DNA from: Lacrimispora saccharolytica
GTDB taxonomy: Bacteria; Bacillota; Clostridia; Lachnospirales; Lachnospiraceae
NCBI GenBank assembly: GCA_021531795.1
Contig: JADYUL010000011.1
Location: 1-64,000, forward strand
DNA length: 64,000 nt
Direction: 5' to 3'
Numbering within the stretch: position 1 is the stretch's first letter; every line of letters starts with the position of its first letter. The notes under the pieces were generated by a model. The model saw only the letters and a list, made by a program, of their open reading frames with translations. It was not told the origin of the DNA and made no database searches. The position numbers and the translations under genes are program-made. Of this stretch, positions 2,575 to 18,578 are shown piece after piece.

Positions 2575-2690
2575 CCCCTGAGGAAGAGAAAATTGAATAT
2601 AATAATAACAAAGTTGAGGACGGAACAGGCAACCGTCACACCCTTGTGGTCTTTAAAGAGATGCAGATTGTCACCTGCCAACTTTGTTAA
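2571..2690 (+). pseudogene. C-terminal remnant of an unidentified gene
   Basis: A frame without a start codon reads ITPEEEKIEYNNNK, then VEDGTGNRHTLVVFKEMQ, and ends at TAA 2688-2690. The composition is protein-like and the frame differs from that of the preceding 60-aa gene, which it overlaps slightly. A terminator follows directly. I read it as the 3' end of a gene whose front was lost when the mosaic was assembled. The family is unknown. Confidence 0.3.
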
Positions 2691-2693
2691 AAC

Positions 2694-2735
2694 ACCACCC
2701 TTTTGATTTGAATAATCGTTAGGGTGGTATTTTTT
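2694..2735 (+). terminator. Intrinsic terminator at the AT-rich/GC-rich junction
   Basis: ACCACCCT pairs with AGGGTGGT across a 19-base loop and is followed by ATTTTTT. It closes the AT-rich block; the GC-rich block starts immediately after, with TATGCACATTTTTTC. Confidence 0.75.
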
Positions 2736-2977
2736 ATGCACATTTTTTCTCAACTTGGGAAAGAGGGGGGGGCGAGGATTACCCTGGAGAGCAGACACGA
2801 GAAAATCACAGCGGACGCATCTTGGACGCAGTTTGGGGCCGCGTGGCCCAGCGCCGCCAGCGTACAACAAAATGCGAGACGGGCCGCAAAACCCGTCGTC
2901 GTGGCCGCGTGCGACAGTTCGCGCCACGCTTCACACATTGCGAAAAGAAAATCACGTCTCAGTTTGTGGAGGGCGCT

Positions 2978-3362
2978 ATGAAGTACAAAAATGAAAAAAC
3001 ACCAAACGAACTCCTGCTCGAACTCAAAAGAAAAGGCTGAAGGTCCGTGGGGTTCGACGACCTGAAAGAATACTACGAGGCGCGCAATAACGCCCTCGGC
3101 GAGGGTGGATCTCGTGTCGGAGGCGTTGCTGGGCATGTCGGGTGCGGCCCCGGACAGGAGGCTGACCGTCGGCGTCATAGAGGAGGTCCTCTCGTGGTGC
3201 GACGTCGATGACGAGTTCGCTGAGAAGTTCGTCAGCAGGTTCAGAGCAGTGCCCGCGGTGTCCTCGCCAAGCGCCGAGGTCGACGGCCTCTACATAGTGA
3301 AGGAGACGAGCCGCGCGGCGGATTTCTAAGACGCGCTGGCGGAAGAAGCCGCACGCGAATAG
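2978..3362 (+). pseudogene. Degraded hypothetical gene with stop codons and a frameshift
   Basis: An ATG with GTGGAGGG upstream opens MKYKNEKTPNELLLELKRKG, then an in-frame TGA at 3038-3040. The same frame continues convincingly (RSVGFDDLKEYYEARNNALGEG), then a frameshift near 3100 leads into VDLVSEALLGMSGAAPDRR. That frame reads on to an in-frame TAA at 3328-3330 and resumes as DALAEEAARE before TAG 3360-3362. All pieces show GC-rich third positions in a single coherent path. I therefore read one gene of about 125 codons carrying three lesions. No family was recognised. The stretch 2736-2977 before it holds no gene I trust. Confidence 0.5.
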
Positions 3363-3462
3363 ACCAGGATTTTTTTATTTCCCACATCCCGTTTGCAAGC
3401 GCAGGCGCTCCGCAAGTTCAGGCACCGCAAATAGCTGGGAACTTTTCAATGCGCGAGCGCCC

Positions 3463-3485
3463 GCGCGAATTTTGCTCGACACATC
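3463..3485 (+). promoter_or_regulatory. T-rich/CACAT upstream element before clpP-like gene
   Basis: GCGCGA, then ATTTTGCTCGA, then CACATC. It aligns without gaps with the copies at 7026, 8821, 9739 and 18026 and lies about 38 bases before the ATG of the ClpP-like gene. A second looser copy (TTTTTTTATTTCCCACAT) sits at about 3369-3386. Its function is unproven; it may be a promoter or a binding site. Confidence 0.45.
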
Positions 3486-3523
3486 TGCGGTGAGAGGACG
3501 TTGCAGGGATAGGAGGAGAGGAT

Positions 3524-4141
3524 ATGAAGTATCAGAGCGCAGTGTTTTACGAGGGTTCTGGTCAGGCGCAGGCAGTGCCGCTAGAGGCCATGGAGATGAG
3601 GCGGAGAATCGTCTGGCTCGACGAGGAGATAACTCCGGAGGTGGCCAACGGCGTTGTGAGGAAGATTTCGCACCTCGCTGCGGAGTCGGCCCGCCCGATT
3701 GTGCTGGCGATAGATTCCCCCGGGGGCTCGGTCGACGCGGGCCTGGTAATTTGCGACGCGGTGTCGGGGTGCGGGGCGCCGGTCACGACGGCGTGCGTGG
3801 GGCGCGCGTACTCGATGGCCGCGGTCGTGCTCTCGAGCGGCTCTCGCAGGCTCATGACCCCGAGCTCGAAGGCGATGGTCCACCAGCCGCTGATAAGGCA
3901 GATGCCAGGGGGTTCCTCGGACGACGTGGAGGTTCTTTCTGGTGAGCTCAGGGAGGCGAAGGCCCGGCTCAACTCGATACTCAAAAAGAACACAGGGAGG
4001 AGCCTCAGGGAGGTGGAGAGAGCGACGAAGCACGACACCTTCTTCACGGCGGCGGAGGCGGTAAAGTTCGGTCTTGCCGACGAGGTCGCGGACCTGTCGG
4101 TGGCGCTTGCAGGAGAGGAGGTGGCGCTATGGAGGATATGA
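3524..4141 (+). CDS. ClpP-like serine protease of a mobile element
   Basis: A 205-residue ClpP/crotonase-fold peptidase. The full catalytic triad is visible: Ser97 in GRAYSMAA, His120 in MVHQP and Asp171 in KHDTFFTAAEA, at spacings almost identical to bacterial ClpP. DSPGGSVDAG forms the oxyanion-side loop. It follows AGGAGGAGAGGAT. Its C-terminus overlaps the start of the VirD4-like ATPase gene by 13 bases, so the two are surely co-expressed. Phage and plasmid ClpP paralogues often act in prohead or surface-protein maturation. Here, beside a coupling ATPase, a role in the transfer machinery or in entry is possible but inferred. The gene is GC-rich and not the host's housekeeping clpP. Confidence 0.85.
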   Translation: MKYQSAVFYEGSGQAQAVPLEAMEMRRRIVWLDEEITPEVANGVVRKISHLAAESARPIVLAIDSPGGSVDAGLVICDAVSGCGAPVTTACVGRAYSMAAVVLSSGSRRLMTPSSKAMVHQPLIRQMPGGSSDDVEVLSGELREAKARLNSILKKNTGRSLREVERATKHDTFFTAAEAVKFGLADEVADLSVALAGEEVALWRI

Positions 4142-5454
4142 GAAAGATGGTGGACGAGCTAGTGTTCGGGGACAGGGTGTCTCGCCCGATGGACATCTCG
4201 GCGACGAGGCTCAACAACAACGTCGTGGTCGTCGGCGCGACGGGCGCCGGAAAAACGACCGCCTATACGGAGGCGAATCTCCTGTCCTTTTCGGAGTGCA
4301 GCGTGGTCGTCTCGATGTCCAAGAGGGTGCTCGCGGACCGCTACGCCGAGGAGTACGAGAGGAGGGGCTACGAGGTCGCGGTTGTGGACCTGGCGGAGCC
4401 CTCGGCGAGCCAGTGGGGCTACGACCCGTTGGCGATGGTGAGAAACGCTGAGGACGTCTCGGACCTCGCAAGGGAGGTCGTCCAGGCGAACGCGGAGCAC
4501 GAGCAGGACCCATACTGGTCCAACAGCGCTGCGGTGCTACTTGAGGCCCTGCTGCTCGCCTCGCTTGAGATGAGGAGGGTAGACGCCTCGCTGCCCCCGG
4601 CGTCCATCAGCGACGCGATTGACCTTTTCGAGGAACTCTCGTTCAGGGACGGGAGGGGCGGCGTCTCCGAGTCTACGCTCGACCATCTCTTCGAGGCCCT
4701 GGAGATGAAGGATCCGTGCTCGGAGGCCGCGGCGAAGTGGAGGTCCGTGAAGGGGCTGGCCTACAAGACGGTGAGCTGCGTGTACTCGACGCTGTCGGTG
4801 GCGCTCTCGAAGATGTTCACGAGGTCGGTAAAGGACGTGTGCGCGTCGGAGAGGCTGTTCGACCCGTCGTCGCTCGGTGTAAAGAAGACCGCACTTTTCA
4901 TAATAACCTCCCCGGTGAACCTCGCCGCGCACTCGTTCTGCCAGCTCATGTACGGGGGAATATTCAAGAGCCTGTTCGAACTCGCGGAGGCGTCCCCAGG
5001 CTACGCGGTCCCAGTTCCGGTCCACGTAATCTGCGATGATTTCGCGGTCGGGGCCAAAATCGCGAGCTTCCCGGGGACGATTTCGGTCATGAGGTCGGCG
5101 GGGGTCTCGGTGTCCCTCCTTATACAGAGCAGGCGCCAGCTGGCGGCGATGTACGGTGAAGTGGGGGCCTCGATAATATGGGACAACTGCGACACTGCGG
5201 TGTACATAGGCAGCACGAACAGCGACGACACCGCGAGGGAGGTTGCCTCGAGGCTTGACGTGCCGATCTCGAGGGTGCTCACGATGCCGGCCGACGAGGT
5301 CGTGGTTATCCAAAGGGGGAGGCGCCCGGTCGTTTGCAGGGTGTTCCCAACGCTCACCGACGAAAGGAGGGTGCGGATACTGCAGGGCGAGGCGCCCCAC
5401 AAAAATAATTTTGCACATAGGCAGGAGAATCTGAGTGCGGAGGGAAGGCTATGA
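4129..5454 (+). CDS. VirD4/TraG-like type IV coupling ATPase (compact)
   Basis: A 441-residue P-loop ATPase. Walker A GATGAGKT is at residues 36-43, Walker B-like VHVICDDFA lies near residue 300, followed by LLIQSRRQL, matching VirD4/TraG/TraD coupling proteins that feed relaxase-DNA into a type IV channel. It lacks the usual N-terminal membrane helices, so it is a soluble or truncated type. The start has GGAGAGGAGG upstream and overlaps the ClpP-like gene. The last 15-20 residues are translated from the T-rich/CACAT element at 5409-5421, so the natural C-terminus may have been shorter. Arg is mostly AGG. Confidence 0.8.
   Translation: MEDMRKMVDELVFGDRVSRPMDISATRLNNNVVVVGATGAGKTTAYTEANLLSFSECSVVVSMSKRVLADRYAEEYERRGYEVAVVDLAEPSASQWGYDPLAMVRNAEDVSDLAREVVQANAEHEQDPYWSNSAAVLLEALLLASLEMRRVDASLPPASISDAIDLFEELSFRDGRGGVSESTLDHLFEALEMKDPCSEAAAKWRSVKGLAYKTVSCVYSTLSVALSKMFTRSVKDVCASERLFDPSSLGVKKTALFIITSPVNLAAHSFCQLMYGGIFKSLFELAEASPGYAVPVPVHVICDDFAVGAKIASFPGTISVMRSAGVSVSLLIQSRRQLAAMYGEVGASIIWDNCDTAVYIGSTNSDDTAREVASRLDVPISRVLTMPADEVVVIQRGRRPVVCRVFPTLTDERRVRILQGEAPHKNNFAHRQENLSAEGRL
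5409..5421 (+). promoter_or_regulatory. CACATA element copy inside the end of the ATPase gene
   Basis: TTTTGCACATAGG, sharing GCACATAGGCA exactly with the copy at 7042-7052. It lies about 30 bases before the next start codon (5451). Confidence 0.4.
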
Positions 5455-5705
5455 AAAAACGCCAAAGAGCTGCGCGAGGTGGCGAGCTCGTACAAAAACA
5501 GGATAGGGGAAGTGGAGGCTCGTATTCGGGGAGCCTCCACTCAGCCCCACGGCGGTCGGGGCAGCAAAGGTCCCGGTTCGTCGTTCAGGGTCTACGAGGT
5601 CACAGGGTGCGGGGCCCGGTACGTCTGTCGCCGGAAGAGGAGCCCGCGCTCGCCGAGGCATCCGAGATAGTGAAAATGGCGCTGGAGCGCCAAAACTTGG
5701 TATAG
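5451..5705 (+). pseudogene. Small gene with compensating frameshifts
   Basis: ATG with GCGGAGGGAAGG upstream, overlapping the preceding stop as ATGA. As written, the frame after the A-run gives low-complexity Arg/Gly sequence. Skipping one A of AAAAAAC instead yields KNAKELREVASSYKNRIGEVE, with GC-rich third positions, to about GSSFRVYEVTGCGARYV. The original frame is then better again for LSPEEEPALAEASEIVKMAL up to TAG 5705. I infer one gene of about 84 codons with two indels, or sequencing errors in homopolymers. No family was recognised; it is helical and charged. Confidence 0.45.
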
Positions 5706-5807
5706 AGCCGAAAGGCACCTGCGGGCAGGCCAATGGTATTATGTTAGGGTAAATTCAAAGTACAAAATTTTTTGAAAACTCAAATCTCAAGACGCCAATT
5801 AAGTTAA

Positions 5808-6035
5808 GCGTTTGCAAAAGAAAGAGCACCTGTCGTAGGCGTATAGTCTTCGGCGGGTGTATTATTTTACATATATATAAAGATAAAAGTTCCAGACCAA
5901 CAAGAAACAGATAAACGTGCAAAGTACATATACGATATTTCTTTTCCTGTTGAAGGAACGTACTACGCTCATATTTCAACTAACTTGACTAAAACAAAGT
6001 ACGTGATGCATTGTGTCTATAGAGGTGCACTGTAG
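5808..6035 (+). pseudogene. Relic reading frame in the AT-rich spacer
   Basis: The 373-base stretch 5706-6078 has no intact gene. One frame reads AFAKERAPVVGV, an in-frame TAG (5844-5846), then SSAGVLFYIYIKIKVPDQQE and TYYAHISTNLTKTKYVMHC, ending at TAG 6033-6035. No usable start was seen. The composition is protein-like and host-like (AT-rich), so I read a decayed gene fragment of unknown family. Confidence 0.3.
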
Positions 6036-6078
6036 CACGTTCCGGAGAGTAATTTACATATAGAGAAAGAGAAAAGAA

Positions 6079-6468
6079 ATGAATAATCAAGACTTAATGT
6101 TAAATACAATAAATATCAAAAATGAAAAAGGGTCGTTTTCGATATTAGAAATTATTGAACCGTTGATAAGAAACTTATTAAGTGAAATAGGAAATGACAC
6201 AATATTGTCTTTGACTCTGTTTGGTTCATATATTAAAGGGACAGCAACTTCTGAATCTGATATTGATTTGTGCCTAATATATAAGACAGGTTTAATTTCA
6301 GAATTGGAGATTAACTTGCTTGTTGACTCCATGTGCAGTGAGCTGTTAGGAAAGTATGGAGTTGTTATTAACATTCTTTGTTTTTCTGAGAAATACTATT
6401 TAGAAAACAAAGATACAAGTCCGTTATTGATTGATATATGCAATGAAGGTGTACTATGCAAGATATAA
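6079..6468 (+). CDS. MNT-type nucleotidyltransferase (minimal, DNA pol beta fold)
   Basis: A 129-residue minimal nucleotidyltransferase. LFGSYIKGTATSESDIDLCL has the GS...DxD metal-binding signature of the MntA family, whose members AMPylate HEPN toxins as antitoxins. The normal partner would be a HEPN gene directly downstream, but only a 25-codon ORF overlaps its end, so the toxin appears lost or truncated. The start has a purine-rich AGAAAGAGAAAAG upstream. A terminator follows. The gene is AT-rich, unlike the GC-rich blocks on both sides. Confidence 0.72.
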   Translation: MNNQDLMLNTINIKNEKGSFSILEIIEPLIRNLLSEIGNDTILSLTLFGSYIKGTATSESDIDLCLIYKTGLISELEINLLVDSMCSELLGKYGVVINILCFSEKYYLENKDTSPLLIDICNEGVLCKI

Positions 6469-6533
6469 ATGAAAAAATAAAGAAAGCCAAAGAGGTTGAC
6501 AAACACGAAAAAGATTTCGATATTGAAATGTAA
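6456..6533 (+). CDS. Short ORF overlapping the MNT gene (25 aa)
   Basis: MQDINEKIKKAKEVDKHEKD and a few more residues before TAA. It overlaps the nucleotidyltransferase end by 13 bases, where a HEPN partner gene would start. It could be the remaining N-terminus of a deleted toxin or a chance ORF. Confidence 0.25.
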   Translation: MQDINEKIKKAKEVDKHEKDFDIEM

Positions 6534-6546
6534 ACAAATGTTAAAT

Positions 6547-6595
6547 AAAAATACCACTGCTCGATTTTCAAGAATTTCTAACAGTGGTATTTTTA
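6547..6595 (+). terminator. Intrinsic terminator after MNT gene
   Basis: AAAAATACCACTG pairs with CAGTGGTATTTTT across a 22-base loop. It is symmetrical enough to act in both directions. The next GC-rich block begins just after it with TTTTTTGACATTGG. Confidence 0.8.
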
Positions 6596-6736
6596 TGTTT
6601 ATTTTTTGACATTGGCGGGCAGGCGCCTTTTTTATGTGCAAATTTTCGGTCGGGCAGCTGCGTCGCAAACGGCTCTGGCCTTTGTAATTTCACAAATAAA
6701 TAGTGACGCACACGGCAGGCGCCAGGAGGAAAGGAA

Positions 6737-6992
6737 ATGAAAAGAAGTCTTCCGACGTATTCGGGAATAAGAACGCCAAGGAAGGGCAGCCGCGCGGTTG
6801 GAAAGGGCGCCGCACTTCTTGCACTGGCGCTGGAGGGGCTATGGTAGGCGCGTGGCTTTGCCGCATTTTTGAAAAGAAGAGGGCAGAGGAGTCCCCGCAG
6901 GTGCCGTGGCTGCGGGTCGGAGTGTACGAGTCCGCGCCGATCTGGACGATGCCGAAAAGGAGGAGGACCACGACGACGTCGAGCTGGACTAG
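6737..6992 (+). pseudogene. Degraded small gene of the GC-rich block
   Basis: An ATG after CCAGGAGGAAAGGAA opens MKRSLPTYSGIRTPRKGSRA, then GKGAALLALALEGLW and TAG. Coherent coding continues in another frame (GAWLCRIFEKKRAEESPQVP) and then in a third (VRADLDDAEKEEDHDDVELD), ending at TAG 6990-6992. This suggests one gene of about 85 codons with two frameshifts. The front looks like a basic N-terminus followed by a short hydrophobic helix; the tail is very acidic. A T-rich ATGTGCAAATTTTCGG element lies upstream at 6623-6645. No family was recognised. Confidence 0.4.
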
Positions 6993-7025
6993 CCTGACCG
7001 GGGGTGCTAGAATTGTAGTGGGGCC

Positions 7026-7048
7026 GCGCGACTTTTCTTTCGCACATA
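7026..7048 (+). promoter_or_regulatory. Conserved upstream element, copy A
   Basis: GCGCGAC followed by TTTTCTTTCGCACATA. It is identical over the whole 23 bases to copy B (9739-9761), nearly identical to copy C (18026-18048) and similar to copy D (8821-8843). It sits 33 bases before the small gene at 7082. Confidence 0.6.
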
Positions 7049-7081
7049 GGCACCATAGGAAAGCACCGAAAGGAGAAGGCC

Positions 7082-7243
7082 ATGGAAAACAGCAGAAATG
7101 AAAAGACAAGGGAGTTTCTCGACGAGTTCTGCGGAAAATTCGAACCCGCGCTCATAGCGCTGGCGGCTCCAGCCGACGAGGAAGTGAACCTCAGCGAACT
7201 CGAGAGGGAATGCGCCGAGGCAGAGAAGCGCCAGAGCAGCTAG
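7082..7243 (+). CDS. Small acidic hypothetical protein (53 aa)
   Basis: ATG after CCGAAAGGAGAAGGCC. The product is helical and acidic (REFLDEFCGKFEPALIALAA, then SELERECAEAEKRQSS). It has no membrane segment or recognised domain. It forms a complete monocistronic cassette: conserved upstream element copy A, ribosome site, ORF, and a GC-rich terminator 16 bases after the stop. Third positions are GC-rich, in line with the other cassette genes. Confidence 0.6.
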   Translation: MENSRNEKTREFLDEFCGKFEPALIALAAPADEEVNLSELERECAEAEKRQSS

Positions 7244-7258
7244 GGAACCGGACCATTG

Positions 7259-7279
7259 GAGGGCCGGCCCTCTTTTTTT
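7259..7279 (+). terminator. GC-rich intrinsic terminator
   Basis: The perfect palindrome GAGGGCCGGCCCTC is followed by seven T. Confidence 0.85.
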
Positions 7280-7293
7280 GCCGCCAAGGTGAT

Positions 7294-7315
7294 GCGCGAC
7301 TTTTCTTTGACATTG
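7294..7315 (+). promoter_or_regulatory. Conserved upstream element, variant copy without a gene
   Basis: GCGCGACTTTTCTTT matches copies A and B exactly, but the end is GACATTG instead of CGCACATA. No convincing ORF separates it from the terminator at 7329, so the cassette may be empty. Confidence 0.4.
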
Positions 7316-7328
7316 ACGACGCGGAGCT

Positions 7329-7356
7329 GGAGGCCGCCACCGCGCGGCCTCCTTTT
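7329..7356 (+). terminator. GC-rich intrinsic terminator before Fic unit
   Basis: GGAGGCC pairs with GGCCTCC around a 10-base loop, followed by TTTT. Confidence 0.7.
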
Positions 7357-7362
7357 GCGTTT

Positions 7363-7452
7363 GCGACGTTTTTCTCATTCGTGCACACATTGTTCGTGGA
7401 CACGCGCCGCGTTCAGCGCTACAATGCGATTATAAACGAACAGCGTTCGTTT
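7363..7452 (+). promoter_or_regulatory. fic promoter with palindromic operator
   Basis: A T-rich element (TTTTTCTCATTCGTGCACACAT) at 7369-7390 precedes a sigma-A-like promoter: TGGACA at 7397-7402, a 17-base spacer and TACAAT at 7420-7425. Just downstream, AAACGAAC and GTTCGTTT form a perfect 8-base inverted repeat with a 3-base spacer (7434-7452), in the transcribed leader before the GTG. The encoded protein starts with a helix-turn-helix, so autoregulation at this operator is likely, though inferred. Confidence 0.6.
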
Positions 7453-7472
7453 TAATTTGAAAGGAGCGAACA

Positions 7473-8528
7473 GTGAACATAAGGGAAATCAAGGAGAAGT
7501 ACTCCGTAAACAACAGGCAGCTCAGCGTGGTGACCGGGATACCGATGAGGTCGCTGCAGCAGTGGGAGAAGGGGGAGAGGAAGCCCCCAGAGTACATCTA
7601 CGGGCTCATAGAGAGCGCGCTGGAGAGGAACGTCGTTGTAAGGCGCGGCGCTCCCGTTCTCATTGGGCACACTCCCACGGTCAGCGCGTCGAGAGTGAAC
7701 TCGATTCTCATGAAGGACTTTTGCGCCCTGACCCGCGAGGACGTGGAGGAACTCAACCGGGCGTACCATGCCCAGATCCTCGAGGAGGCGGCGAGGAAGG
7801 ACACCGGCGGAATCTACAAGTGCACGCAGGTGAAACTCGCGTACAACTCAAACAAGATCGAGGGCAACCGAATGACAGTCGACGACGCGACGCTGTTCTT
7901 CGAGACCGGCATAGTTCCGGACGGAGAGTGCCGCCCGAAGGACGTCGAGGAGATGAGGGGGCACTTCGTGATGTTCAACAACGCAATGAGGGGATTCTAC
8001 TCCCCGCTTGCCGAGGACACAATAAAGAGGTACCATTACGACCTGCAGTGCGGGGTGTTCGAGTTCATCTCCAACGGGTACAGGCCCGGGGAGTACAAGT
8101 CGAAGGAGAACACCGTGGCGGGGATAACGACGTCCTCTCCGGTGAACGTGGCGAGGGACATGGCCGAGCTGCTTGCCGACTACGGCTCGTTTTCGGGCTC
8201 CCCAGTTGAAAACATCGCGCTCTTCCACTGCAGGTACGAGACGATACACCCCTTCCAGGACGGCAACGGAAGGACGGGGAGGATGGTCCTTTTCAAGGAA
8301 GCCTTCGCGCAGGGGGCCGCGCCGGTAATTATCAGCGACGAGAAGAAGAAGGAGTACAGGGCCGCGCTTCGCTCCTACCAGGAGACCGCGAGCGAATCCG
8401 CGCTGGCGGTCTTTCTTGAGTCCTGCCAGGAGGAGTTCTACGAGGTGCTCCGCAAGTACATGTACGACCACAGCGTGCCGCTCTCGTACGTTTGCGAAGG
8501 GGAAGAAGAGATGGGAAATGAAAGGTAG
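7473..8528 (+). CDS. Fic-domain AMP-transferase with N-terminal HTH
   Basis: 351 residues from a GTG start with AAAGGAGCGAACA upstream. Residues 1-50 form a helix-turn-helix-like domain (NNRQLSVVTGIPMRSLQQWE). YNSNKIEGN near residue 127 matches the inhibitory helix motif of class II Fic proteins, in which the Glu blocks the ATP site. HPFQDGNGRTGR from residue 259 is a perfect Fic catalytic loop. Such proteins AMPylate target proteins and act as toxins or regulators. No separate antitoxin gene is adjacent, consistent with self-inhibition. The gene is intact although several of its small neighbours are damaged. Confidence 0.9.
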   Translation: MNIREIKEKYSVNNRQLSVVTGIPMRSLQQWEKGERKPPEYIYGLIESALERNVVVRRGAPVLIGHTPTVSASRVNSILMKDFCALTREDVEELNRAYHAQILEEAARKDTGGIYKCTQVKLAYNSNKIEGNRMTVDDATLFFETGIVPDGECRPKDVEEMRGHFVMFNNAMRGFYSPLAEDTIKRYHYDLQCGVFEFISNGYRPGEYKSKENTVAGITTSSPVNVARDMAELLADYGSFSGSPVENIALFHCRYETIHPFQDGNGRTGRMVLFKEAFAQGAAPVIISDEKKKEYRAALRSYQETASESALAVFLESCQEEFYEVLRKYMYDHSVPLSYVCEGEEEMGNER

Positions 8529-8540
8529 CCGGGCGCCGCA

Positions 8541-8563
8541 AAATAGCCGTTTTTTTACACATA
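8541..8563 (+). promoter_or_regulatory. T-rich/CACATA upstream element, divergent copy
   Basis: CCGTTTTTTTACACATA follows the fic stop and lies about 65 bases before the next ATG. It fits the T-tract plus CACATA pattern, but the GCGCG part is lost. Confidence 0.4.
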
Positions 8564-8628
8564 TTTTGCGAAAAAAATGTTGATAGTGCGAGGGAAGGGG
8601 CCGGGAGCGTAGTACGGAGGGAGGGCGC

Positions 8629-8814
8629 ATGTTAAAAAGAAAGGTTTTGTTCACGGTTCATGTCGTGGCGGTTGCAGCCGCGGCAATTTTGGTCTACGCG
8701 GCGGCGGAGCGCCGCATAGGGACTCCAGAAGAAGAGCATCGCATTTACGAAGCGCTTGAGTCGCGCGGAGAGGAGGTCGAGGACGCGCTTGTTGCCGCGC
8801 ACGTGGGCAACTAG
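8629..8814 (+). CDS. Small single-pass membrane protein (61 aa)
   Basis: ATG after TACGGAGGGAGGGCGC. Residues 1-25 are a basic start followed by a hydrophobic Ala/Val helix (VHVVAVAAAAILVYAAA), a signal anchor or uncleaved signal. The rest is a charged helix rich in Glu. GGGCA and TGCCC at its end may form a weak terminator. No family was recognised. It looks like one of the monocistronic cassettes. Confidence 0.6.
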   Translation: MLKRKVLFTVHVVAVAAAAILVYAAAERRIGTPEEEHRIYEALESRGEEVEDALVAAHVGN

Positions 8815-8820
8815 GTGCCC

Positions 8821-8872
8821 GCGCGGCTTTCTTTGCGCACATATTGTGCGCGTAAGAAAAGTAGTTTATCAT
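8821..8872 (+). promoter_or_regulatory. Conserved element copy D with palindrome and promoter
   Basis: Copy D of the upstream element is at 8821-8843 (GCGCGG, then CTTTCTTTGCGCACATA). Its end is half of a perfect inverted repeat, GCGCACA-TAT-TGTGCGC (8835-8851). The right half overlaps TTGTGC (8844-8849), which with a 17-base spacer faces TATCAT (8867-8872). That suggests a promoter whose -35 region is covered by an operator. Confidence 0.5.
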
Positions 8873-8895
8873 TTAGTGTGCAGAAAGGAGCCGCC

Positions 8896-9210
8896 ATGAA
8901 AATAAACAACAGGGTCGACGCCTACGACGTTGAAGCAGCAAGAGCAGCAATTAGTTCCAGCGAGATGTTCATGGAGAACGTCGAAGAGGTGTACATTTCG
9001 GACTCTGCGTACAGCGGGTTCATGATATTTCTCCTCACGTTCCTTCCGGAAGCAAAGGTCAAGTCTCCGCTGGACCTTGGACGCGAGTTCGCGAGGGTGG
9101 GGCTCTACGGGGACGAGCCCAGCGACGTATGCGTGGACGTGTACTTCCCCGAGGCGGAGGGGGAGGACGGGGTACTCCTTTGGAGAAATCCGCGCGCCCC
9201 ACAGCATTAG
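8896..9210 (+). CDS. Hypothetical acidic protein (104 aa)
   Basis: I take the ATG at 8896 because GAAAGGAGCCGCC precedes it; the upstream in-frame ATG at 8815 lies before the promoter. The product reads MKINNRVDAYDVEAARAAIS and continues with an amphipathic helix, a hydrophobic patch (GFMIFLLTFLPEA) and an acidic C-terminus (DVYFPEAEGEDG). No family was recognised. It has its own promoter (8844-8872) and terminator (9247-9273). Confidence 0.6.
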   Translation: MKINNRVDAYDVEAARAAISSSEMFMENVEEVYISDSAYSGFMIFLLTFLPEAKVKSPLDLGREFARVGLYGDEPSDVCVDVYFPEAEGEDGVLLWRNPRAPQH

Positions 9211-9246
9211 AGAAGCGTTGCGTCCCCAAAAAACAAAAACGAATGA

Positions 9247-9273
9247 AAAAGCCCGGCGTTTGTCCGGGCTTTT
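9247..9273 (+). terminator. Intrinsic terminator
   Basis: AAAAGCCCGG pairs with CCGGGCTTTT around a 7-base loop; the symmetry allows action on both strands. Confidence 0.85.
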
Positions 9274-9332
9274 CCATTTTTCGTACCCCTTTCCCACATT
9301 CGGCCCAGAGCGAAGGAGAAAGGAGTATCGAA

Positions 9333-9575
9333 ATGGAAAAAGCAACCTACCTCAGCACGGTCGAAACAGACTACAGGGCGTTCCTCCTCCTGATGGAGAA
9401 CAGGCACAACAACACCGCGGCGTTTTTGACCCCGCAGGCGTGCGAAAAGTACGCGAAGCATATTCTCTGCGTGGTGAGGGGAGAGGAGCCAAAACCGCGC
9501 GCCGACATGACGTACTACAACGCGGCCAGCAAGCAGATGGCGAAGGTCGGGCACTTCATTCCGCTGCCGATTTAG
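9333..9575 (+). CDS. Hypothetical protein, probably cut short by an amber codon (80 aa)
   Basis: ATG after GAAGGAGAAAGGAG. The product begins MEKATYLSTVETDYRAFLLL and contains YAKHILCVVRGEEPKPRADM. It stops at TAG 9573-9575, but the same frame continues with LAYKDIADGRWRR, which looks coding, so the original protein was probably about 15 residues longer. TTTCCCACATTCGG upstream (9289-9302) is a weak version of the shared element. Family unknown. Confidence 0.5.
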   Translation: MEKATYLSTVETDYRAFLLLMENRHNNTAAFLTPQACEKYAKHILCVVRGEEPKPRADMTYYNAASKQMAKVGHFIPLPI

Positions 9576-9689
9576 CTAGCCTACAAGGACATCGCGGACG
9601 GGCGCTGGCGGCGGTCTCGATGAAGTAGAAAAAATTATCACACATGAAAACCGTGTTTCTCAAGTATCTCTCCTCTACTTTTTAAACAG

Positions 9690-9723
9690 GCCGCGGGACC
9701 GGAGATGGCGACGCGGCTTTTTT
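9690..9723 (+). terminator. GC-rich intrinsic terminator
   Basis: GCCGCG pairs with CGCGGC around a 16-base loop, followed by six T. Confidence 0.7.
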
Positions 9724-9738
9724 GTGTTTTCAGAAGCT

Positions 9739-9800
9739 GCGCGACTTTTCTTTCGCACATATAGGGTGAAATAAGCGCCGGGCTGTTGACCCGGGGTCAA
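9739..9800 (+). promoter_or_regulatory. Conserved element copy B plus inverted repeat
   Basis: Copy B (9739-9761) is identical to copy A. About 25 bases on, TTGACCC-G-GGGTCAA (9786-9800) is a perfect inverted repeat in the leader of the membrane protein gene, an operator candidate or a short RNA hairpin. Confidence 0.5.
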
Positions 9801-9837
9801 GCCGTTGAAAATGTTGTTGCTTGGAAAGGAGGCGCGT

Positions 9838-10350
9838 ATGGGAAATATTGTGTTGGAAGTTGCAACCGGAGTTAGGCCGGTGATGGTTTTTGGGGTCCAG
9901 TTGGTGCTCGTCATGGCCATCCTGTACCTTGTGCGCTTCGTACTGTACCGCCTGTTCAGAAACTTTTGCGAAGGATTCGACCTGCTATTGATTGGTCTCT
10001 CCGCATACGGCGGAGGATACATCGCGGCCGTCGCGCTGAAGACGTTCACGAGCATGTCCAAGGTTGCAACGAACGTCACAGGCTACCTGGTGTGCTGCGT
10101 TCTTATTTTTTTAGCCACAAGACGTTTCAAATTTCTGTGGGTTGCCATTTCCTACAGAGTCGTGTGCGCGCTGATTTTCTGGGTGGTGTTCACTCCGATG
10201 ATAGAGAAGTCCCAGAAGTTCGTCGACAACTTCCACTACGATCCGTCGAACCTGGCGATGAAGGTGCTGCTTTACACTGCGTCGCTCGTGGTGTTCGGGT
10301 ACTTCTGCACCGTGGAGGCCGTACACAAGAGGCACATGGTTCTTGAATGA
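9838..10350 (+). CDS. Integral membrane protein of unknown function (170 aa)
   Basis: ATG after GGAAAGGAGGCGCGT. Four or five hydrophobic segments are visible: PVMVFGVQLVLVMAILYLV, the GFDLLLIGLSAYGGGYIAA stretch, NVTGYLVCCVLIFLA, VVCALIFWVVFTPM and LLYTASLVVFGYFCTVEA. No signature of a transporter or known T4SS subunit was found. It is GC-rich, intact, and preceded by element copy B. The position in a mobile block suggests a transfer or entry role, but this is a guess. Confidence 0.65.
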   Translation: MGNIVLEVATGVRPVMVFGVQLVLVMAILYLVRFVLYRLFRNFCEGFDLLLIGLSAYGGGYIAAVALKTFTSMSKVATNVTGYLVCCVLIFLATRRFKFLWVAISYRVVCALIFWVVFTPMIEKSQKFVDNFHYDPSNLAMKVLLYTASLVVFGYFCTVEAVHKRHMVLE

Positions 10351-10426
10351 GCGAGTCCAGGGGAGGCTCAGAAACTCCCTCAGAAGGCTGCTTACGGTAG
10401 TCGAAAGTTAAAAAAAGGACGTGATT

Positions 10427-10522
10427 ATGAGTAAGCTTTCACGGTATGAGATGGAAACAATCATCAATTTCAATACTGATGAGTAGATGGCAACAGTTTA
10501 TACCGCCGATCCTGCCGTTATC
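10427..10522 (+). pseudogene. Broken copy of a small mobile-element protein (copy 1)
   Basis: MSKLSRYEMETIINFNTDE is followed by TAG (10484-10486) and then in frame by MATVYTADPAVI, after which similarity to copy 2 (10925-11200) ends abruptly. In copy 2 a Glu codon stands where this copy has TAG. The family is common on clostridial integrative elements, where it follows the recombination genes; its function is not known to me. It marks the start of the AT-rich mobilizable block. Confidence 0.6.
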
Positions 10523-10599
10523 CTATCCCATCCATCGTTCATCAACGCGCGCGTGCGCACGAATAGAGCCGGCAGGCAGAAAGGCAGAAAGGAGAATTT

Positions 10600-10938
10600 A
10601 TGGACAATAACAAGTGGAGAGTGCCGGAATTGGCTGATTTATGCCGATATGACAAAGAATTTAGATTTATCGTAGATGTATATGTGCTTAGCGATGATTT
10701 CATCCTTGGAAACGAGGGAGAGCGCCTTCGTTTGGCATTATCAATGTATGGCTTCAAAAGGCTTATGTCAGATATGATGGATGGATTGGTTGATATCCTT
10801 CCAACGAGCATTGAGATAAGCGTATTTAACCATCCAATGATATCCAATGAGGAACTTGAAGAAATCATTGCAATAGTGCAAGAGAAAATATCAAAGCAAT
10901 TAAAAGCACATTTAGGTATCACAGATGAAACTGAGTAG
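10600..10938 (+). CDS. Hypothetical protein (112 aa)
   Basis: ATG after GAAAGGAGAATTT. The product is a mixed-charge soluble protein (MDNNKWRVPELADLCRYDKE, then YGFKRLMSDMMDGLVDILP and an acidic C-terminal helix). Its last codons overlap the start of copy 2 of the small element protein. No family was recognised. Base composition matches the AT-rich element. Confidence 0.55.
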   Translation: MDNNKWRVPELADLCRYDKEFRFIVDVYVLSDDFILGNEGERLRLALSMYGFKRLMSDMMDGLVDILPTSIEISVFNHPMISNEELEEIIAIVQEKISKQLKAHLGITDETE

Positions 10939-11200
10939 ATATGAGCAGGAAACGATTATAAACTTTAATGCCGGAGAAGAGATGGCAACAGTTTATACTC
11001 GTGATCCTGCTGTTATGAGAAGACTTGATGCGTTAGTTATCTAGTTCCCAGAGGTCTATCGGTGCATAGGCTATACAGATATCGACAAAACCTATGAAAT
11101 GCCTAAATCATCCGTTACTTATCGTAAGCCAAGGAAGTTATCAGAGGAGCAGAGAGAGCATAAAAAAACGCTTATGATGAAAATAAATAATAACCACTAA
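10925..11200 (+). pseudogene. Broken copy of a small mobile-element protein (copy 2)
   Basis: MKLSRYEQETIINFNAGEE, then MATVYTRDPAVMRRLDALVI, ends at TAG 11042-11044. The frame continues as FPEVYRCIGYTDIDKTYEMP and KSSVTYRKPRKLSEEQREHK to TAA 11198-11200, giving a full-length family member of about 90 residues apart from one amber codon. Conserved KPRKLSEEQRE is near the C-terminus. It overlaps the gene before it. Either a nonsense mutation or readthrough would explain it; mutation is simpler. Confidence 0.6.
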
Positions 11201-11290
11201 TTCATATCAAATCATATGAAAATCATTGTAAATACCCTAAAAATATATTAAAATGTAAAAGCAGATTTTTTGTTATGTGAGGTAAAAAGC

Positions 11291-11503
11291 ATGGGCGAAA
11301 ATATGAATGATGGATGGATTGGAATAGAGCAGGCAGCTCAATATCTTGATGTTAATAAAGATACCATCAGAAATTGGATTAAAAAGGGCAATATACCTGC
11401 AAATAAAGTGGGAAAATTGTGGAAATTCAAGAAGTCCGAACTCGATGAATGGATAAAAAGTGGGCGAAGTGCTAATGCTTCGCAGAATGAGGTGGGCGAA
11501 TGA
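11291..11503 (+). CDS. Excisionase/MerR-like HTH DNA-binding protein
   Basis: 70 residues. WIGIEQAAQYLDVNKDTIRN and WIKKGNIPANKVGKLWKF form the winged HTH_17 domain typical of Xis and MerR-type small DNA-binding proteins. I use the ATG at 11291 (GTGAGGTAAAAAGC before it) rather than the TTG at 11270. Its stop overlaps the REase start by 4 bases (ATGA), so it heads the restriction-modification operon and probably controls it. It could also be an excisionase, but no integrase is beside it. Confidence 0.8.
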   Translation: MGENMNDGWIGIEQAAQYLDVNKDTIRNWIKKGNIPANKVGKLWKFKKSELDEWIKSGRSANASQNEVGE

Positions 11504-12879
11504 AAAAAGGCAATGTTTTAGTAGAGCAAGTAACAAAAGAAGGATATTTGATTGATGCTTATGACGAAAGTTTATCGCCATCGGAGATATATGACAGAAT
11601 ATCGAGGTATTTTCCTAAAATTCATAAAGCATCACAAGACCAGAGAATTATTTTAGGAGAGCATAAGGGACATAAATTTGCTATTCGATGTAAAAATGTA
11701 ACTTATTTAGGAAATCCCCATCCTCATTTTAAGAAGAGAATACAGATTTCCGATGATTTATATGATTTTTATAGAATTGCATTATCACTTAATGCAGAAC
11801 CAATTTTAATGGGTATTTATAGTTGTGGGAATAATACCATTTTTGTCGATTTTAAGATTGATACTTATATTGACAAAAAGGCACACAATTCCTCTGCGCA
11901 TATTTATGTAAGTGACTTGGCAGCTGCAACAGAAGATGGATATTTTCAGAAGATAGATTACTTTGGTAATACGGTAACAGCGATAAGACCAGATATTGTC
12001 AATGTGTATTTGGATGAACTCTTTGAAGTTGAAGAAGAACAAGTAGTAGTAGAAACACCTAAACCAGAAGTAATTGAAACAAAATCAACTGTAGAACTGA
12101 AAGCACCTTCTGTTGATTATATTAAACCAGAAATCGATTCGAAGAAACCGGTGATTCCATTTATGGAACAAGCACCAAAGCCAGACAAAAGATTGGAAGA
12201 GCGAATGCTTACATATGCTGAAGCATTCAGAAGTAAAATTGTGCCTAAAATTAAGGATTTCTTTGAGGATGAGGAAAAGGAGTGGCATGGAATAGAATGC
12301 TACAAGAAAATGATTGCAACAAATTACAGAAACAAGTATCAGCCAGAATGGGTAGGCTTTTTCTTGGAATATGAATTTGAGAAATATCTAACAGATAATA
12401 AACTTCACTATCTGATTACTTATGCACAGGACAAGAAGGATGGTGGAATTGATTTAGATTTATTCTTCCCAACTATTGAATCTTATGGAGATTTGAAAGC
12501 ACATAGTGAAGAATCGAGAGGAATTCAAGGTAATGATTGGGATACCATTTTTGGAATTATAAATGGGCAGGATGAAAAAAGCCATGTTTATTATATTGTG
12601 TGCGAACATTCCACAGAAAAGGATAGCCTTCATGATTATGAAGTTACAAAATTCTGGAATACGGCACAGCATAAGCCGAATCTTATGAGTTATTCTTCTC
12701 GAATGAAAAATAATGTAAGGCTTAAAAGAGTTTATATTCTGGATATAAATTTTGCTAATAGAGAATTCCTTACAAAATTCAAGCAGGGAATTAACAGTAA
12801 TGGTAAGCCGAGAGCACCGAAGATAATGATTGAACAAGATAATTTACAGCATTTCATAGTGGAAGAAATGACTTTATAA
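11500..12879 (+). CDS. Putative type II restriction endonuclease
   Basis: 459 residues, no homologue named with certainty. Its role rests on operon position between an HTH gene and a cytosine-5 methyltransferase, and on a PD-(D/E)xK-like set: GGIDLDLFF near residue 315 and GDLKAH near residue 330, where the Asp and Lys fit a metal-dependent nuclease core. A Pro/Glu-rich linker (residues about 165-225) splits an N-terminal half from the nuclease half, so the N-terminal half may be for target recognition. It is ATGA-coupled to the HTH gene; the methyltransferase follows 16 bases later. Confidence 0.68.
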   Translation: MKKGNVLVEQVTKEGYLIDAYDESLSPSEIYDRISRYFPKIHKASQDQRIILGEHKGHKFAIRCKNVTYLGNPHPHFKKRIQISDDLYDFYRIALSLNAEPILMGIYSCGNNTIFVDFKIDTYIDKKAHNSSAHIYVSDLAAATEDGYFQKIDYFGNTVTAIRPDIVNVYLDELFEVEEEQVVVETPKPEVIETKSTVELKAPSVDYIKPEIDSKKPVIPFMEQAPKPDKRLEERMLTYAEAFRSKIVPKIKDFFEDEEKEWHGIECYKKMIATNYRNKYQPEWVGFFLEYEFEKYLTDNKLHYLITYAQDKKDGGIDLDLFFPTIESYGDLKAHSEESRGIQGNDWDTIFGIINGQDEKSHVYYIVCEHSTEKDSLHDYEVTKFWNTAQHKPNLMSYSSRMKNNVRLKRVYILDINFANREFLTKFKQGINSNGKPRAPKIMIEQDNLQHFIVEEMTL

Positions 12880-12895
12880 AATAACGAGGTAGTAT

Positions 12896-14071
12896 ATGGA
12901 ACAGTTTAAGTTTATAGATTTATTCTCTGGAATCGGTGGTTTTCATCAAGCCATGGAGCAATTAGGTGGAGAATGTGTATTTGCATCTGAAATAGACAAA
13001 TTCTGTAATGCACAGTATGAAAGAAATTATGGGATGAGTTCTGATATTAACATTCGTGATGTTAAAGAAGAAGAATTACCGGCATTTGATGTATTATGTG
13101 CAGGATTCCCATGCCAAGCATTTAGTAAAGCAGGAAAGCAACAAGGACTTGAGGATAAGACAAGAGGTACTTTGTTTTTTGAAATAGTTCGTATTCTTAA
13201 GCATCATCATACACCATATATCGTTCTTGAAAATGTTAGAAATCTAGTGTCTCATGATAATGGCAATACATGGAGAATTATTCAAGAAAGTTTGCGTGAG
13301 TTAGGATATAGAACAACAGCAGAACCATTGATATTAAGTCCACATTTCTTTGGAATACCTCAGATTCGAGAAAGAGTAATAATACTTGGTAAATATGACC
13401 CAGATAATATTGATGAACCATTAAATATAGATTTAGGTAAATTAAATGCGAAAGAGGATAACTCAATATATTCAGTTCTTGAAGAGAGGGAAGTGGATAA
13501 GAGTTATTACATTTCTGAATATGAGGAAATGGTTCTTCAGGCATGGGATGAATTTTACCAAGGCATAAATCTTAAAGTGATTGGATTTCCGGTTTGGGCT
13601 GATTATTTCAAATACAAGGGAACTTATGATGGTTTGCCAGATTGGAAAGCAGGATTTATTAAGAAAAATGTAAAACTCTATGAAGACAATAAAGAGTTCA
13701 TTGATGGATGGTTAAAGAAATATAATAACCTTAAAAAGTTCACAAAAACGCATCACAAGATGGAATGGCAATGTGGAACTGATATAGCAAGTATATGGGA
13801 TGGTGTAATACAGTTCAGACCTTCTGGTATTAGAATAAAAAAGCCAAACAATTTCCAGGCTTTGGTTGCTATGGTGCAAATTCCAATTATTGGAAAATAT
13901 CGTAGAAGATTAACAGTTGAAGAAGCAGCTAGATTGCAAAGTTTTCCGGTAGATGATGAGATTAAACCATTTATTCCGGATGACAATAGACAACAAGCAT
14001 ATAAACAGTTTGGAAATTCAGTTAATGTTGAAGTTATAAGACGAGCAGCTGAAGCCTTGTTTAAGAATTAA
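12896..14071 (+). CDS. DNA (cytosine-5) methyltransferase of an R-M system
   Basis: 391 residues with all main C5-MTase motifs in order: FIDLFSGIGGFHQA (motif I, SAM binding), PCQAFSKAG with the catalytic Cys near residue 74 (IV), ENVRNLVSHD (VI), QIRERV (VIII), RRLTVEEAARLQSFP (IX) and QFGNSVNV (X). It would protect host DNA against the upstream endonuclease. The target recognition domain lies between VIII and IX (residues about 165-310), so the site cannot be read directly. The start has ATAACGAGGTAGTAT upstream. Confidence 0.95.
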   Translation: MEQFKFIDLFSGIGGFHQAMEQLGGECVFASEIDKFCNAQYERNYGMSSDINIRDVKEEELPAFDVLCAGFPCQAFSKAGKQQGLEDKTRGTLFFEIVRILKHHHTPYIVLENVRNLVSHDNGNTWRIIQESLRELGYRTTAEPLILSPHFFGIPQIRERVIILGKYDPDNIDEPLNIDLGKLNAKEDNSIYSVLEEREVDKSYYISEYEEMVLQAWDEFYQGINLKVIGFPVWADYFKYKGTYDGLPDWKAGFIKKNVKLYEDNKEFIDGWLKKYNNLKKFTKTHHKMEWQCGTDIASIWDGVIQFRPSGIRIKKPNNFQALVAMVQIPIIGKYRRRLTVEEAARLQSFPVDDEIKPFIPDDNRQQAYKQFGNSVNVEVIRRAAEALFKN

Positions 14072-14082
14072 GGAGATATATC

Positions 14083-14361
14083 ATGGGAGAAAGATTTGAT
14101 TTACCTAAAGGTTTTCCAACTGGAGAGCAGTTAGAAACTGAAACAGTAAATGCAATTAAGGAACATGGTGGTACAGCAACCACTACAGAGATAAAAGATT
14201 ACATTGTAAAAAAACTAAAGTTATCTGATGAAGTTCTTGAATTTGAGAATTCAGATGGATTGACAATGTTGATTGATTACAGATTAAGATGGGCAAGAAC
14301 CTCTTTGAAAAACAAAAAACTAATTACTAGTGAGACAAGAGGTGTATGGAAGTCTGTATAA
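14083..14361 (+). CDS. Winged-helix protein, Mrr N-terminal-like, R-M accessory
   Basis: 92 residues after TTAAGGAGATATATC. GGTATTTEIKDYIVKKLKLS and RLRWARTSLKNKKLITSETR form a winged helix resembling the Mrr_N domain that precedes nuclease domains in Mrr-type restriction proteins. Here the domain stands alone, so it may be a DNA-recognition subunit or controller of the restriction module. It is the last gene of the four-gene operon, followed by a strong terminator. Confidence 0.6.
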   Translation: MGERFDLPKGFPTGEQLETETVNAIKEHGGTATTTEIKDYIVKKLKLSDEVLEFENSDGLTMLIDYRLRWARTSLKNKKLITSETRGVWKSV

Positions 14362-14382
14362 AGTAATTTAATAATGTGCGCC

Positions 14383-14427
14383 AAAAGGTAGCAAGTGATC
14401 TTAACAGAAAACTTGCTACCTTTTTTA
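14383..14427 (+). terminator. Terminator of the R-M operon
   Basis: AAAAGGTAGCAAGT pairs perfectly with ACTTGCTACCTTTT across a 14-base loop, then TTATT. Confidence 0.9.
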
Positions 14428-14463
14428 TTTGCAAATATAAAATCAAGAAAGGAAATTAAAAAC

Positions 14464-14799
14464 ATGACAACAGAAGAAGAAATCAAGAAAGCAGAGCAGG
14501 AAGTTAATCGAGCAAAGAAGAAACTTGCAGAAGCAAAACGAAAGGCACAGAAAGAAAAGCGAGCCGAGGAAAACTCAAGAAAGTTTATGATGGGTGGACT
14601 TGTTGCAAAGTATCTTCGTGAGGATATGGAACTTGACTTTATGGACTTTTCAGAAGAGGAAATCACAAGAATTGTTGCTTGTGGAATGAAGCAGAGAGAT
14701 ACAAGAAATATGGTTCAGAAAGTCATATCAGAAAGACCGGCAACAGAGCAAAAAATTGATACTGAAGCTGAGGATGATGGCGAGGGTGGAAATGAGTAG
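14464..14799 (+). CDS. DUF3847-like mobilization accessory protein
   Basis: 111 residues. The N-terminal third is a highly charged coiled coil (QEVNRAKKKLAEAKRKAQKE), then KFMMGGLVAKYLRE, then an acidic tail. This layout matches the DUF3847 family found directly before MobA/MobL relaxases on clostridial mobile elements; a relaxosome or oriT-binding role is plausible. The start lacks a strong Shine-Dalgarno but has AAGAAAGGAAATT upstream. Confidence 0.72.
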   Translation: MTTEEEIKKAEQEVNRAKKKLAEAKRKAQKEKRAEENSRKFMMGGLVAKYLREDMELDFMDFSEEEITRIVACGMKQRDTRNMVQKVISERPATEQKIDTEAEDDGEGGNE

Positions 14800-14807
14800 C
14801 CTTCTTC

Positions 14808-15023
14808 ACCGAGATTTTCTCGGTGCGCACAGATATACTACCAGAGGTAGTATGTGCGTCCTTCGGAGACCATTGCATGGAGCAGAATGCCTATCTTCGA
14901 TAGTCATAAGGGGAAATGACCTTTCCCCTTCACTTCGCTACCCTTTTGTGTACTTTGCGTTTGCGATAGGTCTAAAAACCAGACCTATCACATCCACAAA
15001 GTCTGTCGGTGGTGCTTCGACAG
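14808..15023 (+). other. oriT-like region with several inverted repeats
   Basis: Between the DUF3847 gene and the relaxase lie perfect hairpins: CACCGAGA/TCTCGGTG (14808-14826), ATACTACC/GGTAGTAT (14835-14853), CTATC/GATAG (14891-14903), AAGGGGAAA/TTTCCCCTT (14908-14930), GATAGGTCT/AGACCTATC (14965-14989) and CTGTCG/CGACAG (15003-15023). Such a cluster just before a MobA/MobL gene is the usual place for the origin of transfer. The nick site cannot be fixed by eye. Confidence 0.6.
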
Positions 15024-15062
15024 TTTCGTGTGCTATCGCAACGACAGAGAGGTGGTGGCAGG

Positions 15063-16667: not shown

Positions 16668-16727
16668 CTTAATTGGAGCTGATTATTATAATGCTTTCTG
16701 GTATAAATTAGACAAGGAGATATGCAT

Positions 16728-17687: not shown

Positions 17688-17705
17688 ATACACATTTTCA
17701 ATCAT

Positions 17706-17751
17706 AAAAGGTGGAATGCAAAATGATAATCATATTGCAGCCACCTTTTTT
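17706..17751 (+). terminator. Terminator after DHH-like gene
   Basis: AAAAGGTGG pairs with CCACCTTTT, with inner TGCAA/TTGCA pairing, then a T run. Confidence 0.85.
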
Positions 17752-18025: not shown

Positions 18026-18048
18026 GCGCTACTTTTCTTTCGCACATA
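18026..18048 (+). promoter_or_regulatory. Conserved upstream element, copy C
   Basis: GCGCTAC followed by TTTTCTTTCGCACATA, one mismatch from copies A and B though 8-11 kb away across an AT-rich insertion. It lies 29 bases before the start at 18078. Confidence 0.6.
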
Positions 18049-18077: not shown

Positions 18078-18530
18078 ATGTACAAGATAAGGAACCAGAA
18101 GGCGATTGTTGGGAGCGAGGAAGCGAACAGGTACATAAGGGAGCGGTGCAACCGCTCGCTGGCGTCTGTCGCGCGAAAGCTCCTGCCTGCGGAAATCGCA
18201 GAGAGGGTGGAACGAGAGACCCTGTCGGGCGAGGAGTTCTGCATGGACTTCGCGGACGCGCTGGCGCTCAAGAAGATGCTCGTCGTTTGCAACAACTCCC
18301 GCGTCCCGATAAAGAACGCGGTGGAGAAAATCTCGGAGGCGGACTTCGACATGGTCGTGGACGCGATAGAGGAGAAGGTGCAGAAGAGGCACCTGTCCTT
18401 CGCACTCTCGAAGGAGGAGGTCCTGGAGAGAACAAACGCGGTGTTCTCGGTGAACAGCCTCCCGGACGTTTTCCTTACCGAGGCCTCAGCGAAGAAACTG
18501 CCGAGGGTGAGGAACGTCACAGTGCGCTAG
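18078..18530 (+). CDS. Hypothetical protein of the GC-rich block (150 aa)
   Basis: ATG after GACGGAGGTGCGGCG. The product is soluble and largely helical (NRYIRERCNRSLASVARKLL, then FCMDFADALALKKMLVVC and FDMVVDAIEEKVQKRHLSFA). No domain was recognised. It carries the same upstream element, codon style and GC as the blocks at 2.7-5.7 and 6.6-10.4 kb, so it probably belonged to one element with them before the AT-rich block separated them. The frame is intact. Confidence 0.6.
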   Translation: MYKIRNQKAIVGSEEANRYIRERCNRSLASVARKLLPAEIAERVERETLSGEEFCMDFADALALKKMLVVCNNSRVPIKNAVEKISEADFDMVVDAIEEKVQKRHLSFALSKEEVLERTNAVFSVNSLPDVFLTEASAKKLPRVRNVTVR

Positions 18531-18578
18531 CCCGCGCGCGAGAGAGTATTTGTTTCCACATAAACAGCGTAGGAGCAA

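Follow-up and report, generated by a model that had tools for sequence, protein, structure and literature searches.

The GC-rich blocks of the window, by which we mean the whole stretch of 64,000 bp analysed here (positions 1-64000 of contig C2 of genome G000; 2.15 Mb in 28 contigs), contain a repeated motif that is real and element-specific and that appears promoter-like, while its mechanism is what we infer from the DNA sequence. The copies stand in one orientation between genes, one per transcription unit. On balance we take the motif to be probably the core promoter of the own gene class of a GC-rich mobile element, with a predicted transcription start shortly behind it.

The three GC-rich blocks of the window (about 2740-5720, 6600-10400 and 18004-18725) lie amid DNA of about 34-48% GC, and a fourth is found on contig C24 (L151:6795-8371). 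Third-position GC is 0.80 in eight block genes versus 0.47 in ten neighbouring genes, and in the block genes AGG accounts for 0.59 of arginine and ATA for 0.47 of isoleucine. The codon usage of the blocks is foreign. The block genes of the window named most often below are:

3524..4141, + strand, ClpP-like protease gene (Pfam CLP_protease, 9.2e-43)
4129..5454, + strand, gene for a VirD4/TraG-like coupling ATPase, which overlaps the ClpP-like gene and is not preceded by the motif (Pfam T4SS-DNA_transf, 1e-29; NCBIfam CD1115 model below its cut-off)
7473..8528, + strand, gene for an HTH and Fic protein (Pfam Fic, 1.9e-15; HTH_3 below cut-off)
8629..8814, + strand, ORF of 61 aa, no Pfam match
8896..9210, + strand, ORF of 104 aa, no family match
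9333..9575, + strand, ORF of 80 aa, no Pfam match
9838..10350, + strand, ORF of 170 aa, hydrophobic by reading, no family match
18078..18530, + strand, ORF of 150 aa, no family match

A search of 397 further genomes sampled from the phylum (E 1e-6) gave no relative of ORF 18078, and plasmids gave none either. The block on C24 encodes a second SmpB-like protein (L151:7307-7756; 149 aa, of which residues 7-92 match Pfam SmpB), which shares 56% identity with the presumed host SmpB at C2:67041, near which a tmRNA is located. The short ORFs 2978-3040 and 5451-5705 have similar beginnings and look degraded. Just upstream of the first GC-rich block lies an Rfam skipping-rope RNA (2609-2686; 61 bits, gathering score 36.7), and AT-rich cargo between blocks (11500-14071) encodes an MTaX1-domain protein and a C5 cytosine DNA methylase.

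The motif is defined by the 23-mer GCGCGACTTTTCTTTCGCACATA, which occurs identically at two positions of the window and with one mismatch at a third (0 matches in 100 shuffles) and once more, outside the window, as an exact copy at C24:129766-129788. The copies of the window are:

7026..7048, + strand, exact copy before ORF 7082-7243, 33 nt to ATG
9739..9761, + strand, exact copy before ORF 9838-10350, 76 nt to ATG
18026..18048, + strand, copy with one mismatch before ORF 18078-18530, 29 nt to ATG
8821..8843, + strand, variant before ORF 8896-9210, 20.5 bits when left out, 52 nt to ATG; overlaps a terminator-like stem (8802-8823)
8541..8563, + strand, T tract and CACATA before ORF 8629-8814, 16.3 bits, 65 nt to ATG
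18540..18562, + strand, T tract and CACATA before a truncated tRNA-like stretch, at which a tRNA search called none, 18.4 bits
7369..7391, + strand, looser copy upstream of the HTH-Fic gene, 12.5 bits, 81 nt to GTG
7294..7315, + strand, 5' part of the motif ending in GACATT instead of CACATA, best score there 8.8 bits; nearest listed gene start about 160 nt beyond
5397..5419, + strand, looser copy before ORF 5451-5705, inside the 3' end of the VirD4-like ORF, 9.8 bits, 31 nt to ATG
9278..9300, + strand, looser copy before ORF 9333-9575, preceded by a terminator-like stem (9247-9273), 7.7 bits, 32 nt to ATG
3463..3485, + strand, weak copy before the ClpP-like gene, overlapping a terminator-like stem (3450-3467), 5.4 bits, 38 nt to ATG
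2917..2939, + strand, weak copy before the short ORF 2978-3040, 4.6 bits, 38 nt to ATG

The repetition described in the sequence-only reading is therefore borne out. Its three variants (3463, 8821, 7294) are present, and so are its looser copies (near 2932, 5409, 7369, 8541, 9289 and 18550), with some of the stated ends off by a few bases. The proposed beginning GCGCG[A/T]C is present at 7026 and 9739, but strictly not at 18026, which begins with GCGCTAC. On C24 a variant (L151:6823, position of its CACAT) precedes a neighbouring duplicate gene, and the site at L151:7784 lies 41 nt from its start codon.

Thirteen sites were aligned without gaps on CACAT and scored with a matrix from which each site in turn was left out; the gene-strand CACAT copies at 2739, 3383, 9641 and 10333 and a minus-strand copy at 6634 did not enter this matrix. 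T is found at -4 in 13/13 sites and at -3 and -8 in 10/13 each, the sites having been selected partly for their T tract. Eight of the 13 reach at least 16.3 bits, and the remaining five stay below 13 (4.6-12.5 bits); outside these sites, 94.6 kb of the two contigs, read on both strands, scores 16.7 bits at best. The weak sites at 2934, 3480 and 9295 (4.6, 5.4 and 7.7 bits) rest on position.

Since the earlier reader had chosen the sites by their T tracts, every pentamer in the blocks was counted, which gives an unselected test (9.1 kb, of which 2,290 bp are intergenic and 6,821 bp coding; 779 pentamers). CACAT on the gene strand occurs 15 times in intergenic and twice in coding DNA (p 8e-8); the opposite strand has a single copy. 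Of the two coding copies, the one at 5414 falls within the terminal part of the VirD4-like ORF, immediately ahead of the following ORF. Among the 779 pentamers CACAT ranks second, and only TTTTT is higher, as is expected from terminators and from the T tract. The similar pentamers TACAT (1 intergenic versus 10 coding) and CACAA (1 versus 6) behave differently; ACACA (5 versus 3) and CACAC (4 versus 1) share the lean of CACAT, partly because they are parts of motif copies. Chance is excluded as the source of the placement of CACAT.

The distance between CACATN and the start codon is 29-81 nt at 12 sites and is at most 38 nt at six of them. A fixed distance between CACATA and the start, which the sequence-only reading had named as a check, was not found. 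Within 100 nt upstream, CACAT is present at 10 of 13 GC-block ORFs of the window and at two of four on C24, in a gene list drawn up by the analyst, so that the earlier statement that most genes are preceded by the motif holds. Of the five ORFs devoid of a site, four (VirD4, the SmpB-like gene with its truncated copy, and the ORF at 6841) overlap the gene before them or adjoin it; ORF 6737 is the sole head of a transcription unit that lacks a CACAT copy. Among the nine sites of the scanned blocks, four have a terminator-like stem at most 60 nt upstream, although at 3463 and 8821 the T tract of the motif itself belongs to the terminator call. The start-proximal sites, their absence inside operons and the terminator-like stems upstream together suggest that the motif marks the heads of transcription units.

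Searched at up to three mismatches, GCGCGACTTTTCTTTCGCACATA gives four matches in its own genome, all of them in GC-rich blocks, versus none for the reversed control. With no further match in the rest of the genome, the 23-mer is restricted to the element, and the motif is equally common neither in coding DNA nor elsewhere in the genome. At the same threshold, 396 further genomes sampled from the family gave no match to the 23-mer; it was likewise not found in 19 other genomes of the genus (of 20 searched, 5 at least 90% complete). With the exception of ORF 6737, the sites are thus intergenic, strand-specific, one per unit and confined to the element.

One gene of C24 is present twice in tandem. 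The two copies are 95.5% identical, with 13 silent differences and 6 differences in residue-changing codons, and upstream of them TTCGCACAT is kept at 9/9 positions and the leader at 35/41, while the DNA further upstream is unrelated. This agrees with a putative functional core at TTCGCACAT, whose conservation is, however, not independent of the edge of the duplication, since that edge may lie at the motif.

The earlier suggestion was of a promoter class or an operator. The first part fits best, because there is one site per unit in one orientation, because sites are absent within operons and the 23-mer is not found elsewhere in this genome, and because some sites directly follow a terminator-like stem. 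An activator or operator site would be expected to have a host promoter nearby. Downstream of the eight strong sites no -10 hexamer was found at a fixed offset (p 0.375, with assumed -10 weights). Together with the six of 12 sites that lie within 38 nt of the start codon, this makes it probable that the core promoter is the motif itself. TTGACA/TATAAT pairs of the sigma-70 type with 16-18 nt spacing were found neither at the motif nor at a fixed distance from it. Sigma-70-like sites number four in 6600-10400, where 1.1 are expected, and none in 2740-5720, where 0.3 are expected. Two of them are on the gene strand, at 6985-7013 before the 7026 copy and at 7397-7425 after the 7369 copy.

As CACATA agrees with TATAAT at two of six positions, the sigma-A factor of the host should not read the motif. 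The GG of a sigma-54 promoter, which stands ten bases from its GC, is absent from the 23 bases of the exact copies. The consensus sequences of sporulation and flagellar sigma factors, as we presume them to be, do not fit the motif. Five genes with a sigma region 2 are encoded in the genome, all in DNA of 35-46% GC and none in the GC-rich blocks. Neither a sigma factor nor an RNA polymerase was detected among the 14 of 17 block ORFs scanned with Pfam, the other three being one ORF of 20 aa and two duplicate copies. The single-subunit RNA polymerase family PF00940 was found in 0/2 genomes, but also in 0/14 control genomes.

We propose that the site would be a contiguous and asymmetric stretch of about 20 bp, in which a T or pyrimidine tract is followed by CG and then by CACATA. 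Transcription would begin no more than about 15 nt beyond CACATA and proceed into the following gene; given the gap of 29-81 nt, at the tightest sites a transcript that includes the ribosome site would have to begin within this distance. The reader would be a sigma factor or polymerase encoded by the element and absent from the surviving fragments; it may have disappeared together with the parts of the element that are no longer present, and the units of the blocks may be silent or weakly read in the present host. It is possible, and we put it forward tentatively, that the element had a transcription system of its own, with a sigma factor or RNA polymerase unlike that of the host and a compact promoter composed of T tract and CACATA, devoid of -35 and -10 boxes. 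If so, the whole GC-rich gene set would be switched independently of the host. Against a core promoter speak the five of 13 sites below 13 bits when left out, the variable distance to the start codon, the presence of some sigma-70-like sites and the failure to find a sigma factor or polymerase among the scanned block ORFs.

These sigma-70-like sites, two of which lie near copies, could also indicate that the motif is an operator or stoperator of an element-wide regulator, which silences or tunes transcription from other promoters. According to PMC9283540, the stoperators of cluster A mycobacteriophages such as L5 are asymmetric, oriented with transcription, intergenic and spread over the element, and the motif resembles them in all these respects. 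It differs from them in that there is one site at the head of each unit and that separate promoters are few: no gene-strand promoter was found near seven of nine scanned sites, and the other two promoters differ in their relation to the motif. No site is located between genes of one operon, either, and we therefore regard an operator as unlikely.

That the motif is bound by an activator ahead of a host-type -10 is quite improbable; a second genome provides the example for this reading. Relatives of VirD4 and ClpP adjoin each other in G095 and G159, with 36-38% identity to those of the window; a neighbouring pair like that of the window (3524-5454) is seen in several distant genomes (L169, L171, L172 and L221), in L221 in reversed order. 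A repeat search in G095 gave the motif AACTTTTTCTTCCGATAC with four copies, all on the + strand and within 5 kb of a 245-kb contig (L169:13740-18620, contig C1), around the ClpP-VirD4 operon. The copy at 13740 has 4 mismatches. Matches with exactly three mismatches are no commoner than those of the reversed control, so that only the three copies with 0-2 mismatches stand in that search; the score gap (24.6 versus 15.9) is in-sample. The four copies are followed after 27, 28, 27 and 27 nt by TACAAT, CACAAT, TACACT and TATGAT. This spacing was reached in 0/800 shuffles for three equally spaced sites (post hoc), at 0.005 for four under strict spacing, and in 0/400 if 1 nt is allowed. The motif of G095 would thus fall near -57 to -40 of promoters that lack a clear -35; due to the -10 at 27-28 nt it is probably an activator site, and it looks like the activator regulon of a small block.

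Both motifs have + strand copies that each precede a transcription unit, and ACTTTT...TTYCG is common to both; however, the motif of the window lacks the -10 that follows the G095 copies at 27-28 nt. The geometry of G095 would moreover not fit the 29-38 nt to the start codon at six of 12 sites. Homology of the two motifs is not claimed, as T-rich motifs resemble each other easily. In G281, whose VirD4 is 75% identical, the 15.8-kb contig contains no motif of the G095 type even when 4 mismatches are allowed.

It is still less probable that the motif acts in the RNA, where it would serve translation or processing as a signal in the leader. The sites are on the coding strand before start codons, and in the three exact copies a GCGA/TCGC stem surrounds the pyrimidine tract. 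However, this stem is complete in only three of eight strong sites, which are the same sequence; operon-internal genes lack the motif; and no Rfam match that overlaps a site in 2600-18800 reaches its gathering score. The variable distance to the start codon also contrasts with the 3-7 bp typical of start-associated sequences (PMC3203893). That the motif is a recombination site for the entry of gene cassettes or AT-rich cargo is hardly credible: left edges of GC blocks do lie near a CACAT or GACATT copy (2739, 6608, 18043 and L151:6823), but most copies are inside uninterrupted blocks, no stem is common to the sites, insertions between genes would fall near promoters anyway, and the right edges lie at other places, in two cases within a truncated gene copy or tRNA-like stretch.

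The truncated tRNA-like stretch runs into the repeat GCCCGTGGCTTCAAGGTCTCGCC... (window 18583-18670, L151:6565-6612), which is also found directly after a serine recombinase-like gene on C24. This repeat is possibly an attachment or junction sequence; tRNA-like and recombinase-like are descriptions by reading only.

Relatives of the element were also looked for more widely. Alignment with VirD4 revealed two distant loci (L221, 37%; L222, 28%), and in single-protein scans of viral contigs no relatives of VirD4, of the C24:6870 protein or of Fic were found. DNA matches were absent from phages for 3524-5451 and for the C24 block, and from plasmids for 6600-10400. At the VirD4 loci of G646 (two), G1049 (two), G126, G977 and L221, none of the eight top repeats each resembles the motif, and neither these loci nor L222 contain the 16-mer with CACAT at up to three mismatches. 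The palindromic AGAATATTCT-type repeat recurs in G1049 and G646 (L257, L258/L259, L253/L254). The exact 16-mer occurs in at least 115 stretches of genome contigs, where about 120 are expected by chance (257 Gb, both strands), and in 30 stretches of viral contigs. The 145 stretches listed, with 20 bases before and 70 after, show no likeness to the blocks of the window, and tblastn of 13 block proteins against the 16-mer loci gave a single match, an SmpB in L059. L079, the sole 16-mer locus with a second near copy, was rejected: both copies are found in ordinary DNA, opposite in strand to a 532-aa ORF at whose start they lie. Of 63 phage records with an SmpB match seven were taken; three of these carry a tmRNA and were set aside as likely chromosomal pieces.

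The motif tags a foreign element that is now in scattered pieces, and makes these pieces recognisable independently of gene homology. Should it be a promoter unread by the sigma factors of the host, the element would bring its own transcription specificity. Such specificity is well known from some phages; to our knowledge it has rarely been shown for elements with a conjugation-type coupling ATPase. Among open-licence PubMed Central papers no report of the motif was found.

The start-associated sequences of cluster K mycobacteriophages are likewise asymmetric, nearly always in one orientation and located before genes with larger intergenic gaps, with no exact copy in the host (PMC3203893). They contain the core of the Shine-Dalgarno sequence, whereas the motif of the window lies 29-81 nt from the start and is followed by a separate ribosome site, and it is thus not of their kind. 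The late promoters of the jumbo phage AR9 are read by a multisubunit phage RNA polymerase and have the consensus AACA-6N-TA/G, according to PMC5312081. This consensus is not present in the exact copies of the motif, which contain no AACA. No polymerase of the AR9 type was detected among the 14 Pfam-scanned block ORFs, only fragments of the element being present, and the element differs also by its coupling ATPase and its second SmpB-like protein. What both have in common (PMC5312081 for AR9) is a short motif repeated before the transcription units across one element, with no -35 and -10 of the host type.
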